Translations under genes and position numbers: made by a program
Part shown: piece after piece, positions 2,217-18,142 of the stretch
How the letters are laid out: the number at the start of each line of letters is the position of its first letter
Numbering within the stretch: position 1 is the stretch's first letter
Virus record (IMG/VR): IMGVR_UViG_3300007514_000076
Coordinates: 1-21,691 of that record
Source: a virus
Direction: 5' to 3' (one strand)
Length of the DNA: 21,691 nucleotides
The notes under the pieces: model-generated
What the model was told of the DNA's origin: nothing
Seen by the model: the letters and a program-made list of their open reading frames with translations, nothing else
Database searches by the model: none

Positions 2217-3119
2217 ATGGATTTCGCACAATTAAAACAAAGTCGTTCTAACTTTGATAAACTAACAAAAGCATTAGAACAAAACCTCAATCCCGAGGAT
2301 AAATCAACATCAAACAAATACCAAGACGATAGAATCTGGAAACCAGAACTAGATAAAACTGGAAATGGTTATGCAGTAATTAGATTTTTACCAGCAACGG
2401 ATAAAGAAGATATGCCGTGGGTAAGAGTTTGGTCTCACGCATTTCAAGGACCAGGTGGTTGGTATATTGAAAATTCATTAACAACATTAGGCAGAAAAGA
2501 TCCAGTAAGTGAAGAGAATACTAGATTATGGAATACTGGAGTTGATTCTGATAAAGATATAGCTAGAAAGAGAAAGAGAAAATTATCTTACTATTCTAAC
2601 ATATATGTTGTAAGCGATCCAAAGCATCCAGAAAATGAAGGTCAGGTAAGGTTATTCAAATTTGGTAAAAAAATATTTGATAAGATTACAGAAGCAATGC
2701 AACCAGCATTTGATGATGAAAAACCAATCAACCCATTTGATTTTTGGCAAGGTGCAAACTTTAAGTTAAAAATTAGAAAAGTTGATGGATTTTGGAACTA
2801 TGATAAGTCTGAATTTGAGGCTGTTTCCCCAATTGCAAGTGATGACGAACATATCAAAGCATTATGGGCTAAGCAGTATGCTCTACAGCCTTTCCTAGCC
2901 GATAGTAATTTTAAATCTTATGAGGATCTTAAAGAGAAACTTAATAGGGTAATTACAGGCAAAGGAAGCAATGGTGCTACAACGGCAGCTGAAGTGGAAC
3001 TCCCACCACAATCTGCTAAACCATTGAAAAGTGAAGAAGCGCCTGCTCAAGTAAGCAAGGTGAATGATGAGGACGAAGATACCTTATCATATTTCAGTAA
3101 ACTTGCTGAAGACGAGTAA
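2217..3119 (+). CDS. 32: single-stranded DNA-binding protein gp32
   Basis: The 300 residues match T4 gp32 (301) in length and order. There is a short basic N-terminal region (KQSRSN); the OB-fold core with 'GNGYAVIRFLP', 'SHAFQGPGGWYIE' and 'YYSNIYVVSDPKHPENEG'; then 'FKFGKKIFDKI' and 'WQGANFKLKI'; and an acidic C-terminal tail (NDEDEDTLSYFSKLAEDE). In T4 the protein coats single-stranded DNA during replication, recombination and repair, and its acidic tail recruits partner proteins. The T4 zinc ligands (one His, three Cys) are not conserved: the segment equivalent to CPVC reads DPVS, and the whole protein contains no cysteine, so zinc binding of the T4 kind is ruled out. The start is chosen by AGGAGA 11 bases upstream. 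The gene is isolated between an RNA-like leader and a strong terminator, so it is probably its own transcription unit. Confidence 0.93.
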   Translation: MDFAQLKQSRSNFDKLTKALEQNLNPEDKSTSNKYQDDRIWKPELDKTGNGYAVIRFLPATDKEDMPWVRVWSHAFQGPGGWYIENSLTTLGRKDPVSEENTRLWNTGVDSDKDIARKRKRKLSYYSNIYVVSDPKHPENEGQVRLFKFGKKIFDKITEAMQPAFDDEKPINPFDFWQGANFKLKIRKVDGFWNYDKSEFEAVSPIASDDEHIKALWAKQYALQPFLADSNFKSYEDLKEKLNRVITGKGSNGATTAAEVELPPQSAKPLKSEEAPAQVSKVNDEDEDTLSYFSKLAEDE

Positions 3120-3147
3120 TATCTCTCTCTAAAACTTCTGAACTTTG

Positions 3148-3177
3148 AAGGGGGGACCGAAAGGTCTCCCCTTTTTT
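3148..3177 (+). terminator. intrinsic terminator after gp32
   Basis: A G-rich stem at 3150-3158 pairs with 3163-3171 (nine pairs, one G-T), capped by a GAAA tetraloop and followed by six T (3172-3177). AA at 3148-3149 can extend the stem into the T run. It is the only textbook rho-independent terminator I see in the window. Confidence 0.92.
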
Positions 3178-3188
3178 ATTGGAACTCT

Positions 3189-3196
3189 TATAAATA
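3189..3196 (+). promoter_or_regulatory. T4-type late promoter, TATAAATA, next to the start codon
   Basis: Exact late core whose T4-style start point falls at about 3202, the A of the ATG of the following gene. No ribosome-binding purine run lies between, so the transcript would be leaderless or nearly so. Confidence 0.7.
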
Positions 3197-3201
3197 TCCG
3201 T

Positions 3202-3756
3202 ATGGCAAGTGTATTAGATAGTTTAGTAGATAAACAAGGCGATTCAGTCAAATCGGCTGCTTGGTATCAAGCAAATGTCCGTAAGATTGCAGGTAGGGCT
3301 ACAGCAAGACAATTAATGTCTTCTGGTAAATTGAATAGCAGACCAAGTACAGGTAGGTTAAATATGTTTTTTTATGACCCTAAAACAAAAGTCAAACTGC
3401 CTTATTATGATACATTTCCATTAGTGCTACCTTTAGAAGGAATTAGAGGTGGGTTTATGGGTATGAATTTTCATTATTTACCACCATTATTGAGATTTAG
3501 ATTATTGGAACTTATGCAAAGATATGCTACAAGTCCTGATTTAAAATCTTCAACAAGGATGGATGTAAGTTATGATAGAGTTGCAGCTTTACCAATAGTT
3601 AGACCAACAATTAAAAAATATTTATGGTCTCACGTTAGATCAAACTTTTTAAGGATAGATATACAAGAGGCAGCTATAGCAGTACATTTACCAGTACAAC
3701 AATTCAAGAAAAGGTCAGCACAATATGTTTGGTCACAAAGTAGGAGAAGAATTTAA
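3202..3756 (+). CDS. conserved T4-like phage protein of unknown role, probably virion-associated
   Basis: I start it at the ATG at 3202 (MASVLDSLVD), not at the upstream TTG at 3145, which would run through the gp32 terminator. The 184 residues carry a central block 'MFFYDPKTKVKLPYYDTFPL' then 'GGFMGMNFHYLPPLLRFRLL', which I recall from proteins of marine T4-like phages without a firm function. The C-terminus is basic (QFKKRSAQYVWSQSRRRI). There is no signal peptide or membrane segment. The stop overlaps the next start (TAATG at 3754-3758), so it is coupled to the tube-initiator gene, which supports a tail or baseplate assembly role by context only. A role like DNA-end protection or head-tail joining cannot be excluded. 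The late promoter lies 5 bases before the start, and no Shine-Dalgarno is seen. Confidence 0.75.
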   Translation: MASVLDSLVDKQGDSVKSAAWYQANVRKIAGRATARQLMSSGKLNSRPSTGRLNMFFYDPKTKVKLPYYDTFPLVLPLEGIRGGFMGMNFHYLPPLLRFRLLELMQRYATSPDLKSSTRMDVSYDRVAALPIVRPTIKKYLWSHVRSNFLRIDIQEAAIAVHLPVQQFKKRSAQYVWSQSRRRI

Positions 3757-4751
3757 TGGCAATATTAAGAGGAGGTAGACGTATCGGTAATATGGATATC
3801 CGTATGGGTATTCCTAGAGATAGGTCTTTGGATAATGTTGCAGGTGATAAAAGACTTAAAAGAACTTTGGGTGCAAGTCCTGAATCTGCTATGGGTAGAT
3901 TTATGGGTTATGTTATTGAAGGAGAAGGATTTGCTAAAAGTAATAAATTTTTAGTTGATTTTATTTTACCCCAAGGTGTTGACCAAGGTTTTGATACCGT
4001 GGATATGGGAGGTGCTGATGTTGCTGCTACTATTCCATTTGAGGAAGAAGTTAGATATGCTACAAAGACAGGTGATATGCAACAAGTTAAAACTTTACAA
4101 AGAGGTTTAAGAGCATATTGTGATACAATTGGTTTGCCTTCAAGAAATATTGATACAACACCATTTAGAACTTACGGACCTAAAAGAGAAATACCTTATT
4201 CATATAGTTTTTCAGGTGAGCTTACTGCTACTTTTTATTGCGACAAGTATTTAAGACAAAGACAATTTTTTGAAATGTGGCAACAAGCAATATTTAACCA
4301 AAATACTCACAACTTAAATTTTTATGATGAGTATGTTGGTGGTATGAGAATATACCAATTAGGGGCATTTTCAGGAGGCAATACAGATCAAATGGGTGGA
4401 GAAGGTACTAGAGACAGAATTTCTTACGGTGTTACCTTGTATGAAGTTTTTCCAAAAACAATTACAGAATTAGGTATGGATTTTGCTAGTGCCGAAATAC
4501 AAAAGATTTCCGTTGGATTTCAATATAGAAAATGGGAGAATTTTACATTTGACCAAATGGGTAATTATACTACAGGAACTGGATTTAGTCAACCTGTGGT
4601 TAAAGAAGGAAGAGTGGGATTATTGAACAGCATTTTAGGTAAATTACCACCTGAAATGAGACGTGCTGGTAGAGACGTTGTTCAAACAATAAGAAGAAAT
4701 CTACCAATTGGGCCAATAACTGGTGGTAGAGTATTTCCACCATTTTTATAA
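3756..4751 (+). CDS. 54: baseplate tail tube initiator gp54
   Basis: The 331-residue product is close to T4 gp54 (320). Between about residues 60 and 275 it shows the tube-protein-like domain typical of gp54/gp19 relatives: 'NKFLVDFILPQG', 'YCDTIGLPSRNIDTTPF', 'REIPYSYSFSGELTATFY', 'DKYLRQRQFFEMWQQ', 'LNFYDEYVGGMRIYQL', 'YGVTLYEVFPKTITELGMDF' and 'GFQYRKWENFTFDQ'. In T4, gp54 sits on gp48 at the top of the baseplate and starts polymerisation of the gp19 tube. AGGAG lies 9 bases upstream and the ATG overlaps the previous TAA. A proline/arginine-rich C-terminal tail (about 290-331) goes beyond the domain. gp48 is found separately at 8245. The main alternative is that these two tube-like genes are swapped, since gp48 and gp54 are related. 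Confidence 0.8.
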   Translation: MAILRGGRRIGNMDIRMGIPRDRSLDNVAGDKRLKRTLGASPESAMGRFMGYVIEGEGFAKSNKFLVDFILPQGVDQGFDTVDMGGADVAATIPFEEEVRYATKTGDMQQVKTLQRGLRAYCDTIGLPSRNIDTTPFRTYGPKREIPYSYSFSGELTATFYCDKYLRQRQFFEMWQQAIFNQNTHNLNFYDEYVGGMRIYQLGAFSGGNTDQMGGEGTRDRISYGVTLYEVFPKTITELGMDFASAEIQKISVGFQYRKWENFTFDQMGNYTTGTGFSQPVVKEGRVGLLNSILGKLPPEMRRAGRDVVQTIRRNLPIGPITGGRVFPPFL

Positions 4752-4769: not shown

Positions 4770-5489
4770 ATGGCATTACCGATAGCCAATACGGCTAAAT
4801 ATGAGTTGACTTTACCGTCTCAGCAAAAAAAGGTAGAGTATAGACCTTTTCTTGTTAAAGAGGAAAAGATTTTGCTACTTGCATTAGAATCTGGAAAACC
4901 AGAGGAAATGTTAAAAGCAGTACAAGAGATAGTTAAATCTTGTACCTTTGGGACTATGAACCCCGAAGAATACCCAATGTTCGATTTAGAATATGTGTTT
5001 TTGCAAATTAGAGCAAAGTCAGTTGGTGAAATTGCAAAGTTAAAAGTTTTATGTCCAGATGATAAAAAGACATATGGCGAAATTGAAGTTGATTTAACAA
5101 AAATAGAAGTTTTTGTTGATGATGACCACACAAACAATATTGTGTTAGATGAAAAAAGAAAACTAGGTGTTATATTAAAATATCCTGGTTTGAAAAATCT
5201 AACAGGTTCTATGCTTGGTGGGAATACTATTAAAATATCCGATTCATATAAATTGGTTGAAAGTTTAATTGACCAAGTATATGAAGGAGAAAATATTACC
5301 TTTGCTAAAGACGCTGGAAAAGATGAAATGAAATCATTTGTTGAAAGCCTATCTTCGGAACAGGTAAAAAAACTTATGAAATTTTTTGAATCAGCACCTA
5401 GACTTGAACATAAAGTCAAGGTTACCAACCCTAAAACAAAGGTTGAGAGTGAAATTACATTAAAAGGCTTGTCCGATTTTTTCGGATAG
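4770..5489 (+). CDS. 26: gp26-like baseplate hub / tail assembly chaperone, zero-frame product
   Basis: The 239-residue product has the N-terminal hallmark of the T4 gp26 baseplate family ('YELTLPSQQKKVEYRPFLVK', then 'EEKILLLALESGKPEEMLKA'). A mid-region begins 'FDLEYVFLQIRAKSVGE' and includes a hairpin-like 'LKVLCPDDKKTYGEIEVDLT' segment. The last codons GAT TTT TTC GGA TAG contain a -1 slippery heptamer, so this is probably the short product of a pair, with the longer form adding the 5483-5677 reading frame. Tail assembly chaperones of long-tailed phages (lambda gpG/gpGT type) are classically made this way and bind the tape measure protein, encoded here two genes downstream. It is preceded by GAAGGAG and a clean ATG. 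A large minus-strand open frame over the same bases (4820-5500) is a composition shadow. Confidence 0.8.
   Translation: MALPIANTAKYELTLPSQQKKVEYRPFLVKEEKILLLALESGKPEEMLKAVQEIVKSCTFGTMNPEEYPMFDLEYVFLQIRAKSVGEIAKLKVLCPDDKKTYGEIEVDLTKIEVFVDDDHTNNIVLDEKRKLGVILKYPGLKNLTGSMLGGNTIKISDSYKLVESLIDQVYEGENITFAKDAGKDEMKSFVESLSSEQVKKLMKFFESAPRLEHKVKVTNPKTKVESEITLKGLSDFFG
5477..5483 (+). promoter_or_regulatory. -1 ribosomal frameshift slippery site, T TTT TTC
   Basis: Zero-frame codons TTT TTC preceded by T form the canonical X XXY YYZ heptamer, four bases before the TAG stop (5487-5489). After slipping to TTT TTT the ribosome reads CGG ATA GCC and stays open to 5677. Eleven bases downstream (5495-5525) lies an imperfect hairpin: TCTCA + GATTC, loop ACTACA, GAATC + TGAGA, which could be the stimulator. 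Confidence 0.7.
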
Positions 5490-5677
5490 CCCTTTCTCAC
5501 GATTCACTACAGAATCATTATGAGACTAATTTTGCTTTAATGCAACATCATAAATATTCGTTGAGTGAATTGGAAACAATGGTGCCTTGGGAAAGGGAAA
5601 TTTATATTAATTTGTTAATAAATCACTTGAAAGAAGAAAAAAGAAAACACGAAGAAAGAGCTCAAAGAGGAAAATAA
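5483..5677 (+). CDS. gp51-like frameshift extension of the gp26 chaperone
   Basis: This -1 frame starts RIALSHDSLQNHYETNFAL, then QHHKYSLSELETMVPWEREI, then a charged helical tail ending in AQRGK. I recognise the 'LMQHHKYSLxELExMxPWERxIY' pattern from small gp51/hub-catalyst-type proteins of marine T4-like phages. The frame has no convincing own start: the only in-frame ATG codons (5540, 5579) lie inside the conserved block and have no Shine-Dalgarno. It becomes continuous with gp26 if the ribosome slips back one base at 5477-5483. The fusion product would be about 302 residues. Its stop (5675-5677) sits directly before the next ATG at 5679. The alternative, independent low-level initiation, would cut the conserved LSHDSLQ segment. 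Confidence 0.7.
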   Translation, partial: RIALSHDSLQNHYETNFALMQHHKYSLSELETMVPWEREIYINLLINHLKEEKRKHEERAQRGK

Positions 5678-5678
5678 A

Positions 5679-5990
5679 ATGTTAGAAGAGAGTTTATCGA
5701 AGGCAAAGAAAACAGGCATTGACACTATTAAAATGGTGTGGGAATTTTTTACAGATGAAATACCACACGTTTTATCTAATTGGAGATTTGTTCCAAGAGC
5801 AATGATGTTATTGTATTGCTACGCTTTCTATCAAACTATGAACTGGTTTATGGCATTACCTGAACCTAACAACGCACAAGCTGGTTTTGTATCAGTAGTT
5901 GTTGGTGCTGGCGCTGCCTGGTTTGGTTTATATGTTAATAGTGGCGGAGTTAAAAAAGCACCGAAGAAAAAAGAAGAACAAATAGGCTAA
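5679..5990 (+). CDS. holin-like two-helix membrane protein
   Basis: A 103-residue protein with two hydrophobic segments, about 39-58 (PRAMMLLYCYAFYQTMNWFM) and 67-86 (QAGFVSVVVGAGAAWFGLYV). A short prolyl/polar turn (ALPEPNN) separates them and a lysine-rich tail (KKAPKKKEEQIG) ends the chain. Two membrane helices, small size and a basic cytoplasmic tail fit a class II holin, which would time lysis by opening the inner membrane. Similar 'WRFxPRxMM...WFMALPxPxNxQAGFVSVVVGAGAAWF' proteins occur in T4-like phages. T4's own holin (gene t) is a different one-helix type. AGAGG precedes the ATG at a normal distance. It sits between the chaperone and the tape measure, not beside an endolysin; no endolysin gene is visible in this window. 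A membrane-bound tail-assembly factor is the alternative. Confidence 0.6.
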   Translation: MLEESLSKAKKTGIDTIKMVWEFFTDEIPHVLSNWRFVPRAMMLLYCYAFYQTMNWFMALPEPNNAQAGFVSVVVGAGAAWFGLYVNSGGVKKAPKKKEEQIG

Positions 5991-5994
5991 TTAA

Positions 5995-7770
5995 ATGGCA
6001 AATGAACCGATAGTATCACTTTCAGAAAAAGATAAAGGTATAAAAGCATTAGGTGATAAGATAGTTGGCAGTTGGAAAAATTTAGAACTTTCTGTTAAAC
6101 AGAACCTAATGTTACCAGCACCTGCTGCTATTCCTGCTGTACTAAAGCAAGACGCAGAAATGGAGGCTACTAATCCAATATTATCGGCATTGGACGATAT
6201 TAAACAAGCAATATTATCACTAGTAGATAAATTTACAGATATTCTAGGAATAGAACAAAATCAATTAGACATTTTAGAAAAACCACCTGAAGAAGATGTT
6301 GACGCAGCTATGGCTGACGCTCAATCAACGGAACTTTTAAAAGAAAAAGATGATGATACAGGACCTGGAGTAATGAGAAGAACTTGGGACTCACTAAAAG
6401 ATAAGGCTCGTGGAATGAAAGATAATTTAATGGGTCTATTGAAAAAAGGTGCTGTAATGGGTTTGTTAGCAGGAGCATTTATTCTTATTAATAAGTATGC
6501 AGACGAAATATCAGCAGCTCTAACACCTGTGGTTGATGGTTTAAAAAGATTTTGGACTTCTATAAAAGAAGATATTGGTCCTTTATGGGATACTCTTATA
6601 GATACGGTGAAATCTGCTTTTGAATCTTTAAGTAATATTATTGTAGGATTATTTACACTAGATACTGGAAAATTTATGACTGGTCTTAAACAATTATTTG
6701 TAGATTTTATTCCTAATGTAATAAGTTATATCGGTCAAGGTATAACAATGACCGTAAAAGCAATAGGTGAATTGTTTGGGTTTAATATGGATTTTTGTCA
6801 AGATATTTTACAATTCTTTAGAGATTTTCCTGAAAATGTTAAAACAATGATTGAAAACGCTATTAACTTTATTACAGATGAAATACCAGCAAAATTTGAT
6901 GAAATGAAAACAGCAGTCTCCGATTGGATAGGTGAGAAGATAGATTTTATAAAAGATGAATTTATGGGTGCTTTTACATTTATTACAAAAGATGTACCAG
7001 AGAAGCTTGGTAAAATGAAAGATAAAATTATAGATGGTGTGATTAATATGGTTGATAAAATATTCACACCTATTAGGAATTTAATGCGAGATATGGTATA
7101 TGCCACCAAAGTATTTCTTAATAGTGTAATTGATAAAGCCAATAAATTATTACCTAAAAAGTTTGAAATTCCAAAATTTGATCTTTTACCAGAAGTTTCA
7201 AAAGAACAAAAATTAAGAGAACAAGAAGATGAACAGAAGGCACCTCCAGAATCAATTCTACCATTAAGCACAGGTATTGATGAAGACCAAAGAAAACATA
7301 CTGGTGACATTAAAACAGCAAAAGATTTTTTAAAAGAAGCAAAATCGTCTGATTTCTTTAATAAAGAATTATATGGTGATAGTATAATTGATAGAGGAAT
7401 GGTTGATGAAGTCCCAACTAAACATATAAAAGCAGTATTAGATTTAGAAAAAGACGATTTAAGTCCAGAAGATATAAATTTTCTTGAAAATGAATTAGAA
7501 AAAAGACGATTTGATAAATTAAAAAGTATTGGTGTGTTACCTAATGTTATTGTACCTGAGCATATAACAAAAGGTGCAACATTAAATGCTGATTCGGCTG
7601 CATATGCTACTGCTGGCTCTTCCAATCCAAAAATTAATATTATTTCAAAAAATCAAGGTGATACAATTGCCGCTACAAAAAATATAACCATCAATGAAGA
7701 AAAACCTGTAGGCGCCGATACGAGTCATTTGTCTAGTACATTTTTCAGAAAGAGAGCAGGAATTCGATAA
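5995..7770 (+). CDS. 29: tail tape measure / baseplate hub protein, gp29-like
   Basis: At 591 residues it nearly equals T4 gp29 (590), the tail-length determinator. Order of features: an N-terminal charged helical region; a hydrophobic helix at about 150-166 (KKGAVMGLLAGAFILIN) as many tape measures have; a mid-region with amphipathic helices and a loose repeat in which D-(F/I/V)-P-(E/A)-(N/K)-x-x-x-M recurs three times (FPENVKTM, IPAKFDEM, VPEKLGKM, about 275-345); a predicted helix-rich middle; and an acidic, glutamine-rich C-terminal half. Assignment rests on length, helical architecture and position right after the chaperone pair, not on a diagnostic motif, so gp29 is probable, not certain. 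The ATG at 5995 follows the holin-like stop by four bases with a weak AATAGG site. It converges with the minus-strand gp4 gene with no bases between the two stops. Confidence 0.7.
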   Translation: MANEPIVSLSEKDKGIKALGDKIVGSWKNLELSVKQNLMLPAPAAIPAVLKQDAEMEATNPILSALDDIKQAILSLVDKFTDILGIEQNQLDILEKPPEEDVDAAMADAQSTELLKEKDDDTGPGVMRRTWDSLKDKARGMKDNLMGLLKKGAVMGLLAGAFILINKYADEISAALTPVVDGLKRFWTSIKEDIGPLWDTLIDTVKSAFESLSNIIVGLFTLDTGKFMTGLKQLFVDFIPNVISYIGQGITMTVKAIGELFGFNMDFCQDILQFFRDFPENVKTMIENAINFITDEIPAKFDEMKTAVSDWIGEKIDFIKDEFMGAFTFITKDVPEKLGKMKDKIIDGVINMVDKIFTPIRNLMRDMVYATKVFLNSVIDKANKLLPKKFEIPKFDLLPEVSKEQKLREQEDEQKAPPESILPLSTGIDEDQRKHTGDIKTAKDFLKEAKSSDFFNKELYGDSIIDRGMVDEVPTKHIKAVLDLEKDDLSPEDINFLENELEKRRFDKLKSIGVLPNVIVPEHITKGATLNADSAAYATAGSSNPKINIISKNQGDTIAATKNITINEEKPVGADTSHLSSTFFRKRAGIR

Positions 7771-13773: not shown

Positions 13774-13879
13774 TAAGTGTTGTAAATGGTTATTGGGCGC
13801 ATATGTAGGTTGGTCTATTATTGTTGATTTAACTTTATTAGCGGGGGTAATTATTTTACTTTGGAAATATGTTAGTTAA
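13751..13879 (+). CDS. micro membrane protein, 42 residues
   Basis: MIKAIKNSKCCKWLLGAYVG is followed by one strong hydrophobic span (about residues 14-38, ending LLAGVIILLW) and KYVS at the end. The lysine-rich N-terminus suggests an inside-facing N-terminus. AAGGA stands eight bases before the ATG, which is good support for a real gene despite its length. It starts inside the 3' end of the previous gene in another phase and overlaps the Fe-S carrier start by eleven bases, so the three are translationally coupled. The cysteine pair at 10-11 near the membrane is notable. Function unknown: candidates are an antiholin-like or superinfection-exclusion factor, both inference. Confidence 0.6.
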   Translation: MIKAIKNSKCCKWLLGAYVGWSIIVDLTLLAGVIILLWKYVS

Positions 13880-14198
13880 TTTAAGTGATAACGCCAAGAA
13901 ACAGATTCAAGTTCTTTGTGAGAAGAACAAAAAGGACTACGTGTTGCTTCAGGCTAAAGGTGGCGGTTGTGCTGGTTTTATGTATGATTGGTCTTTCGTG
14001 GAAAAATCGGATATAGGCGATAAAGATTCTGTAATACCTGTGGAAAAAAATGCGAATCTTGTTATAGATGGAAAATCGGAATTCGCTCTGATAGGTATGA
14101 ATGTTGATTATGTTGAGGAAGTGTTTGGGTCCCATTTTGAGATTAATAACCCGAATGCGAAAAGTGGTTGTGGTTGTGGGGTCTCATTTTCTGTATAA
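13869..14198 (+). CDS. A-type iron-sulfur carrier, IscA/HesB family
   Basis: The 109-residue product has the family length and the three invariant cysteines: C34 in 'KGGGCAGFMY' and C101/C103 in the C-terminal 'SGCGCGVSFSV'. Flanking motifs 'LSDNAKKQIQ' at the start and 'LIGMNVDYVEEVFGSHFEIN' before the tail are typical. Such proteins accept Fe-S clusters from the scaffold and pass them to client enzymes. Related genes are known in marine cyanophages and other T4-like phages as host-derived metabolic genes. Clients could be host enzymes or phage Fe-S proteins outside this window. It is coupled to the micro membrane gene and its stop (14196-14198) lies within the late promoter that drives the following lipoprotein gene. 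Confidence 0.92.
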   Translation: MLVNLSDNAKKQIQVLCEKNKKDYVLLQAKGGGCAGFMYDWSFVEKSDIGDKDSVIPVEKNANLVIDGKSEFALIGMNVDYVEEVFGSHFEINNPNAKSGCGCGVSFSV

Positions 14199-15869: not shown

Positions 15870-15975
15870 AGAATATCCTAAATTCTTAAAATCAATTCCC
15901 AAATTAAGTAATAAGGATATTTTAAAACACCCATTAATGAAACTATTAGAGGAGTTAAAAAAATGTCTAATGTAG
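15832..15975 (+). CDS. small protein, 47 residues, overlapping guaC
   Basis: MRSLKEINKQLNKEYPKFLK starts a second tiny frame in another phase that overlaps the coiled-coil gene by 38 bases and guaC by 13 bases. It is lysine- and leucine-rich and probably helical (LSNKDILKHPLMKLLEELKK). It has no clear Shine-Dalgarno. Function unknown. The GAGGAG that serves guaC lies within its last codons, a packing that suggests coupled translation, but chance cannot be excluded at this length. Confidence 0.4.
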   Translation: MRSLKEINKQLNKEYPKFLKSIPKLSNKDILKHPLMKLLEELKKCLM

Positions 15976-17012
15976 AATTTGATGTCAAACTAGGTTTTGA
16001 TGATGTATTATTGAAACCAAAAAGAAGTACCTTAACAAGTAGATCAAAAGTAAATTTAACACGCATACATAAATTTAAACATAGTACAAAAACTTTTGAA
16101 GGCGTTCCTTTAATTGCAGCTAATATGGATGGAGTTGGAACATTTAGTATGGCAAAAGTTATGCAAGATTTTAATTGTTTAACGGTTATTAAAAAACATT
16201 ATACAAAAGAAGATTGGGAAAAAGCAGTAGGTGAAGGATTAAGTTTAAGACATATTGCCGTTTGTACAGGTTCAAATATGATACACGACCCTAATGCTGA
16301 AGATTACTTTTTAACTAAACTTCTATTAGAGAAGTATCCTGATATTAATTATATTTGTATAGATGTTGCAAACGGTTACCAAGAAGCGTTTGCTAATTTT
16401 GTTGCAAGAGTAAGAAAAGACTTTCCAGATAAAGTTATAATTGCAGGTAATGTTATTACTCCAGAAATGACCGAACAATTAATTATTAGAGGTGCAGATA
16501 TTGTAAAATGTGGTATTGGTCCTGGTAGTGTATGTACAACAAGAGCAATGACAGGAGTTGGATATCCCCAATTATCTGGTATATTAGAATGTGCTGACGC
16601 AGCTCACGGTTTAAAAGGACATATTGTTTCAGATGGTGGTTGTAGAACACCAGGAGATGTTTCAAAAGCATTTGCTGCTGGTGCTGATTTTGTAATGTTA
16701 GGTGGAATGTTAGCAGCTCATAAAGAATCTGAATTGCAATTAAAAGATGGTAAGTATGAATTTTATGGAATGGCGTCTGATAGAGCAATGGAAAATCACG
16801 GTAATAGAAAAGATGGTTATAGAGGTGCTGAAGGCAAATTAGTTCATTTACCAGATAGAGGTCCAGTACAACATACTATCAATGAAATATTAGGTGGAGT
16901 TCGTTCTTCTTGTACCTATGTTGGTGCAGAAAGATTAAAAGATTTACCTAGATGTGCGACGTTCGTACAAACCCGAGAAATACTTAATCGGGTTTATAGT
17001 GATTTTGAATAA
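15963..17012 (+). CDS. guaC: GMP reductase
   Basis: The 349-residue product follows E. coli GuaC (about 346) almost end to end. 'KLGFDDVLLKPKRSTLTSRS', 'VPLIAANMDGVGTFSMAKVM', 'YICIDVANGYQEAFANFVAR', 'GADIVKCGIGPGSVCTTRAM', 'GVGYPQLSGILECADAAHGL', 'VSDGGCRTPGDVSKAFAAGA' and 'ILGGVRSSCTYVGAERLKDL' are all conserved. C191 in GPGSVCTTR is the catalytic cysteine. No CBS pair interrupts the barrel as in IMP dehydrogenase, and the whole sequence is closer to GuaC than to GuaB. The enzyme reduces GMP to IMP with NADPH, releasing ammonia, and so returns guanine nucleotides to the adenine branch. In a phage of an AT-rich genome this would help convert salvaged host GMP to AMP/dATP. GAGGAG precedes the start. 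It converges with a minus-strand gene with no gap. Confidence 0.95.
   Translation: MSNVEFDVKLGFDDVLLKPKRSTLTSRSKVNLTRIHKFKHSTKTFEGVPLIAANMDGVGTFSMAKVMQDFNCLTVIKKHYTKEDWEKAVGEGLSLRHIAVCTGSNMIHDPNAEDYFLTKLLLEKYPDINYICIDVANGYQEAFANFVARVRKDFPDKVIIAGNVITPEMTEQLIIRGADIVKCGIGPGSVCTTRAMTGVGYPQLSGILECADAAHGLKGHIVSDGGCRTPGDVSKAFAAGADFVMLGGMLAAHKESELQLKDGKYEFYGMASDRAMENHGNRKDGYRGAEGKLVHLPDRGPVQHTINEILGGVRSSCTYVGAERLKDLPRCATFVQTREILNRVYSDFE
16969..16995 (+). terminator. possible weak hairpin terminator inside the guaC 3' end
   Basis: AAACCCGA 16969-16976 pairs perfectly with TCGGGTTT 16988-16995 across an 11-base loop, ahead of the converging stops at 17012/17013. It codes for guaC residues and has only three T after the stem, so it would be a weak or factor-assisted terminator at best. 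Confidence 0.25.
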
Positions 17013-17776: not shown

Positions 17777-18142
17777 ATGAGTCAAGTAGATACATTGGTT
17801 GAACAATTAGGTAAATTAACGGTTTTAGAAGCCGCTGATTTAGCAAAAAAATTAGAAAAAGCGTGGGGTCTTGATTATGAGAAAATTCTACAAGGCGCAA
17901 AACCTCAAATAGTTGAGGAAGTGAAAGAAGACACACTTTTAAAAGTAATTTTAACTGGTTATGGTGAACAGAAAATAGCAGTAATCAAAGCAGTAAGACA
18001 AGTTAAAGATATGGGTCTTTTGGAAGCTAAGAATTTTGTAGAAGGCGTTCCACAAGAATTAAAAAGTGATATAGAAAAAGAGGAAGCTGATAAAATCAAA
18101 GTTGCTATAGAAGCAGCTGGTGGTTCAGTAGAAATAAAATGA
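17777..18142 (+). CDS. rplL: ribosomal protein bL12 (L7/L12)
   Basis: The 121-residue product has both domains of L7/L12. The N-terminal dimerisation helices (1-32) read 'LVEQLGKLTVLEAADLAKKL' then 'EKAWG', close to the alphaproteobacterial 'LSKLTVLEAAELSKxLEEKWG' form. The C-terminal factor-binding domain (about 52-121) has 'KIAVIKAVRQVKDMGLLEAK', 'FVEGVPQELK' and 'AAGGSVEIK'. The usual Ala-rich hinge is replaced by a short non-alanine linker (33-51). On the ribosome, bL12 forms the stalk that recruits elongation and initiation factors. A phage copy could join host ribosomes and favour phage messages or counter loss of host protein; viral bL12 genes have been reported in surveys of aquatic viruses. 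It has its own AAGGA and a late-type promoter, so it would be made late. The next gene's ATG overlaps its stop. Confidence 0.95.
   Translation: MSQVDTLVEQLGKLTVLEAADLAKKLEKAWGLDYEKILQGAKPQIVEEVKEDTLLKVILTGYGEQKIAVIKAVRQVKDMGLLEAKNFVEGVPQELKSDIEKEEADKIKVAIEAAGGSVEIK

Follow-up and report, generated by a model that had tools for sequence, protein, structure and literature searches.

Programmed -1 frameshifting in a tail assembly chaperone gene is known from phage lambda, where it yields the G and GT proteins (Xu, Hendrix and Duda, 2004; reviewed in PMC5009743). Efficient E. coli frameshift motifs include U_UUU_UUC; U_UU.C is the second-best tetramer there but requires a strong stimulator (PMC4066793). 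The gp26 and gp51 proteins of phage T4 are hub assembly chaperones, gp51 being described as essential and of unknown function (PMC3004832). Sullivan et al. (2010) reported that gp51 of cyanophages has only about 20% of the usual length, without the first ~200 residues, and that gp51 is missing only in Aeh1 (PMC3037559). In the record of phage Abraxas, the depositors label gp26, gp51 and gp28 tape measure protein assembly chaperones, so a tape-measure chaperone role is not new here, and no prior report of a frameshift in a gp26/gp51-like gene was found in the open-licence literature. We propose that one gene of this family, beside the tape-measure gene, in all likelihood yields a short/long chaperone pair like that of lambda through -1 frameshifting.

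The window analyzed here is the whole of a 21,691-nt stretch of DNA (IMG/VR record IMGVR_UViG_3300007514_000076, positions 1 to 21,691), a 21.7-kb virus record that carries T4-type tail genes. The features on which the comparison rests are the following.

3756-4751, + strand: tail tube or gp54-like protein, upstream of the chaperone gene (phrog_45, 2.3e-35)
4770-5489, + strand: gp26-like short form, 239 aa (open reading frame; stop TAG at 5487-5489)
5460-5483, + strand: conserved motif L-x-G-L-x-x-F-F at the C-terminus, which includes the slippery codons (alignments)
5477-5483, + strand: slippery heptamer T TTT TTC in the zero-frame phase X_XXY_YYZ (sequence)
5477-5677, + strand: predicted -1 extension FFRIALSH...RGK*, 64 aa after FF, a gp51-like tail (translation)
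5495-5525, + strand: candidate hairpin stimulator, beginning 11 nt past the heptamer (MFE -7.9 kcal/mol)
5540-5542, + strand: earliest ATG of the -1 frame, lying 63 nt beyond the start of the heptamer
5679-5990, + strand: 103-aa protein separating the chaperone from the tape measure (phrog_10198, 1.1e-23)
5995-7770, + strand: probable tape-measure protein, 591 aa (31 PHROG matches)

The gp26-like open reading frame matches PF12322 (T4 baseplate protein) at 4.1e-59 over positions 2-218 of 219 and phrog_150 (gp26 family) at 8.2e-63, and its AlphaFold2 model has a pLDDT of 84.8. It is the one PF12322 copy in the record, which is a fragment. With one small open reading frame intervening, it lies just upstream of the tape-measure-like frame, whose 31 PHROG matches are mostly to tape-measure families (best 2.9e-16). 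The intervening 103-aa protein is apparently membrane-spanning. Other + strand genes of the window encode a phage-borne ribosomal protein bL12 (17777-18142; PF00542 3.7e-23, PF16320 2e-10), an IMP dehydrogenase/GMP reductase-like enzyme (15963-17012; PF00478 1.4e-66), a HesB/IscA-type iron-sulphur protein (13869-14198; PF01521) and a 348-aa protein that has no Pfam match, seems to carry a signal peptide and looks barrel-like (841-1887).

The gp26-like frame ends GAT TTT TTC GGA TAG, so T TTT TTC at 5477-5483 stands in the phase needed for a -1 shift, as the first-pass annotation had said of the 239-residue frame; the gap to the TAG, put there at four bases, is actually 3 nt (GGA). Read from 5477, the -1 frame encodes FFRIALSHDSLQNHYETNFALMQHHKYSLSELETMVPWEREIYINLLINHLKEEKRKHEERAQRGK and stops at 5677, and the predicted fusion (4770-5483 joined to 5483-5674) has 302 aa. 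The -1 block matches phrog_634 ('baseplate hub assembly catalyst', annotated gp51) at 2.5e-29 and the C-terminal end (231-281) of phrog_150 at 2.2e-07, which agrees with its earlier description as 64 residues of a recognisable conserved block. When the -1 extensions were compared with the C-termini of T4-type gp51 proteins by hhalign, the probability was 97.8 and the E-value 9e-13; the reversed control, taken from an earlier run by the same method, gave 0.1.

This organization resembles lambda G/GT in that a short protein and a -1 long form with a common N-terminus would be encoded just upstream of the tape-measure gene, with a slippery heptamer ending the first frame and a downstream frame that has no proper start. 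It differs from lambda in that the chaperone belongs to the PF12322 family, the slippery site is U UUU UUC, many relatives of the window have strong hairpins and the 103-aa gene precedes the tape measure. With respect to lambda G homology, Pfam and PHROG searches of the window gave only PF12322, phrog_150 and phrog_634. A fold search of the PDB with the gp26 model found no match with E <= 0.001 and hence gives no ground for linking the structure to lambda G or HK97-type chaperones; the BFVD matches that bear names are mainly gp26/gp51-like proteins. The gene is therefore filed as working like G/GT and not as its homologue: of the match to lambda that had been put forward, the likeness of strategy stands, whereas homology to lambda G in sequence or fold was not found. 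E. coli dnaX likewise combines a heptamer with a downstream hairpin, and some relatives of the window share with it a GAGG about 10 nt upstream. The window site is, however, a U-run where that of dnaX is an A-run, its frameshift product is longer and not shorter, and it has no strong Shine-Dalgarno-like element. Also close are cyanophages and pelagiphages annotated with gp26 and a short 'gp51' (P-SSM2, S-PM2 and HTVC008M), which have the same locus, arrangement and heptamer (a T run in HTVC008M) and differ in annotation, with two independent genes or, as in ACG-2014j and S-PRM1, an unannotated tail.

The slippery site is conserved far beyond the window. In-phase TTTTTTC is found in the window and in all 80 of its 80 nearest IMG/VR relatives. 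In a set of 182 loci comprising the nearest IMG/VR relatives, the window, reference phages and two further scans, phase-correct T6N is present in 179 and TTTTTTC in 176, figures that count sequences and not independent events; the three loci without T6N are all of the Ackermannviridae type. A phase-correct heptamer was also present in every heptamer-type locus of a further comparison; an all-lineage profile was too divergent for a collection scan. The arrangement spans at least eight lineages, including Kyanoviridae, KVP40, Cronobacter S13, Aeh1/PX29/CC2, Stenotrophomonas, Variovorax and two rhizobial groups. Attributed at first to marine T4-like phages, it does hold for the marine relatives but is not marine-only, occurring also in the other lineages just named besides Kyanoviridae. 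The distance from heptamer start to stop is 7, 10, 13 or 31 nt among relatives, but in every case the heptamer coincides with the FF that ends the L-x-G-L-x-x-F-F motif. The slippery Phe pair is TTT TTC in 123 of 126 distinct contexts, compared with TTTTTC at only 12 of 136 FF pairs elsewhere in the same genes, and the two codons are almost without synonymous variation (synonymous identity 1.00 and 0.97). Heptamer and -1 overlap are thus both conserved in related phages, which is the check that the first-pass annotation had suggested, and a lack of heptamer conservation, which would have spoken against frameshifting, was not seen.

Conservation extends into the frame that slipped ribosomes would enter. 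Over the 50 codons downstream, amino-acid identity is 0.56 in the -1 frame vs 0.37 and 0.33 in the other two. In 80 of the 126 contexts, the window included, an ATG is missing from the first 18 codons of the -1 block; in the window, consistent with the earlier statement that the block has no start of its own, no Shine-Dalgarno sequence was found upstream of the ATG at 5540, and a start at this ATG would lose 21 conserved residues of the tail. The sequence R-[IVL]-x-L-x-H is conserved at the beginning of the -1 frame despite the missing early ATG, and residues that precede any ATG are kept in the ATG-less contexts (R in 76/80, I/V/L in 80/80 and L in 79/80). By these measures the -1 frame is genuinely coding and under purifying selection, without a start of its own.

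The same observations bear on termination followed by re-initiation, by which the tail would be a separate small protein (gp51) made from its own start with no frameshift. Databases do annotate a separate gp51, with ATG or TTG starts in P-SSM2, S-PM2, R10Z and Ps15, and about a third of the contexts, belonging to some clades, have an early ATG within roughly 15 nt of the heptamer (12 nt from the heptamer start in 4 contexts and 15 nt in 35), so that re-initiation may there provide a separate tail peptide as an additional route. As a replacement for frameshifting it is improbable, given the many contexts without an ATG, the conserved residues ahead of the first one and the near absence of Shine-Dalgarno motifs for the -1 frame across the 126 contexts. 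Moreover, T4 gp51 has the tail fused to a gp26-like body, and conservation of the heptamer would be unneeded. Relatives in which the tail has its own ATG and Shine-Dalgarno sequence would have favoured two genes; no consistent start codon or Shine-Dalgarno sequence was found.

As to stimulators of the slip, the hairpin that had been noticed at 5495-5525, 11 bases past the heptamer, was confirmed (p = 0.02 when compared with synonymous resamples of the -1 frame). It is modest, and its spacing from the heptamer is farther than usual. By the criterion that the 47 nt after the heptamer be stabler than 95% of synonymous resamples of the -1 frame, downstream hairpins are significant in 81 of 126 contexts, and four control windows in the same genes gave 5, 8, 15 and 20 significant of 126. 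In cyanophage clades the stems reach up to 12-17 bp and start about 4-6 nt after the heptamer, at the same place but with different sequences between clades. Covariation, including a C-G to U-A double change, was considered as decisive proof of the hairpin and rejected, as each clade shows a single double change and registers that were slid give much the same counts; little of it can be seen in a hairpin that is part of coding sequence and shows scant variation. The stronger evidence comes from synonymous resampling. Upstream of the slip site, the window has only a weak Shine-Dalgarno-like AAAGG (within 5460-5483). Enrichment of a Shine-Dalgarno-like GAGG some 10 nt upstream is limited to part of the family; at this site the Glu codon is GAG at 37:15 vs 784:2107 elsewhere. 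As a general feature, a Shine-Dalgarno stimulator was rejected, being observed in 62 of 126 contexts vs 37 expected, clade-restricted and weak in the window.

Transcriptional slippage on the T run, which would insert a base so that a share of the mRNAs encode the fusion directly, could draw on the six T in a row, and on the seven or eight in phiM7 and HTVC008M. Six T are, however, short for slippage by bacterial RNA polymerase, and the strict phase of the heptamer, the non-T seventh base in 177 of 179 loci and the hairpin fit ribosomal slippage better, making this explanation highly improbable. A further alternative, in which the -1 frame is left over from a decayed gene or reflects a frameshift error in assembly and the heptamer is coincidental, has nothing in its favour but the overlap itself and can practically be dismissed, since the same frame relation and heptamer recur in isolate genomes and independent metagenomes and the purifying selection on the -1 frame contradicts it.

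Programmed -1 frameshifting of one chaperone gene also offers a new view of T4 itself. Both T4 gp26 and T4 gp51 match PF12322 over full length, and gp51 extends further at the C-terminus, with matches there to phrog_634 and the end of phrog_150; judged by these sequence matches the two are paralogues, which is new here. In the alignment, T4 gp26 ends ...GLKEFFELL at the frameshift position and gp51 continues into the same C-terminal block. The AlphaFold2 models of the window gp26 and a T4-type gp51 (pLDDT 81.8 for the latter) have a similar order of strands and helices, to which gp51 adds three C-terminal helices. T4 thus shares with the window the PF12322 family, a gp26 that stops at the frameshift position and a gp51 composed of the body plus the C-terminal block. 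It differs in having two separate paralogous genes, each without the heptamer, that are divergent in T4 and tandem in RB43. In the latter, a gp51-like and a short gp26-like gene lie in tandem on one strand (positions 3001-4294 of locus L101), a possible trace of duplication. PF12322 genes number two in 6 of 6 T4-type genomes and one in 20 of 20 others tested, and the heptamer is absent from both the gp26 and the gp51 genes of the T4 type, with T4 gp26 writing FF as TTC TTT. Copy number and heptamer pattern together suggest that the signal accompanies a single gene that has to supply both forms and is lacking where two genes do so.

The first-pass annotation had treated gp51 as a short, separate partner of gp26, which does not hold for T4, where gp51 is a full-length gp26 paralogue with the same tail; it follows that the marine 'gp51' would be only the tail of the long form. 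Cyanophage gp51 thus appears 'truncated' because the portion that it lacks is encoded as gp26 in the overlapping frame, and gp51 appears to be 'missing' in Aeh1 because that phage has the heptamer and a -1 tail that is present but unannotated. The broader proposal that many annotated 'gp26' and 'gp51' genes of marine T4-like phages are one frameshifted gene is supported by the conserved heptamer and -1 tail, as far as sequence conservation can speak to it.

The Ackermannviridae-type loci examined (L201-L219, L093, L095 and L096) have one PF12322 gene and no heptamer. At the homologous codon they have a conserved T_TTC tetramer (T_TTT in Vibrio K444), followed by a conserved -1 tail that is unannotated in Klebsiella T765, and they may possibly use this simpler frameshift site. 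In Vibrio YC and K444, where there is also a TAATG overlap, the tail may be translated by re-initiation. For Klebsiella phage May, it is reported that no tape measure chaperone was detected upstream (PMC6509524).

The conserved signal, the selection on the -1 frame, the paralogy and the copy number were computed here, and from them we infer ribosome shifting in the cell, the product ratio and tape-measure binding as follows. The 239-residue short chaperone (the gp26 form) would come from the majority of ribosomes, which keep to the zero frame and terminate at 5487. A fraction would slip back one base on U UUU UUC, with tRNA-Phe re-pairing from UUC to UUU in the A site and from UUU to UUU in the P site, probably aided by the downstream hairpin and in some relatives also by the upstream Shine-Dalgarno-like GAGG, and would produce the 302-residue long form with its predicted helical gp51-like tail. 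In a fixed ratio, the short and long forms very probably handle the tape-measure protein encoded downstream, as G/GT do, and the pair may couple this protein to hub/tube assembly. In T4 and its close relatives the same pair would come from the paralogous genes gp26 (short) and gp51 (long).

We consider it likely, if less firmly than the frameshift itself, that across the T4 superfamily the short/long pair is made interchangeably by -1 frameshifting of one gene, probably the ancestral state, or by two duplicated genes (gp26 and gp51), and that Ackermannviridae may use the simpler U_UUC tetramer at the same site. A gene tree separates gp51, T4-type gp26 and the frameshift-type genes; its resolution is weak at the root and for the T4-type gp26 group, so it gives no order to frameshifting and duplication. 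For annotation, the finding means that in hundreds of genomes of marine and other T4-like phages, gp26 and the start-less 'gp51' should be one gene. This reading gives T4 gp51 a role that can be tested, that of long partner to gp26, and within the family frameshifting and gene duplication can be compared as natural alternatives for setting one protein ratio.
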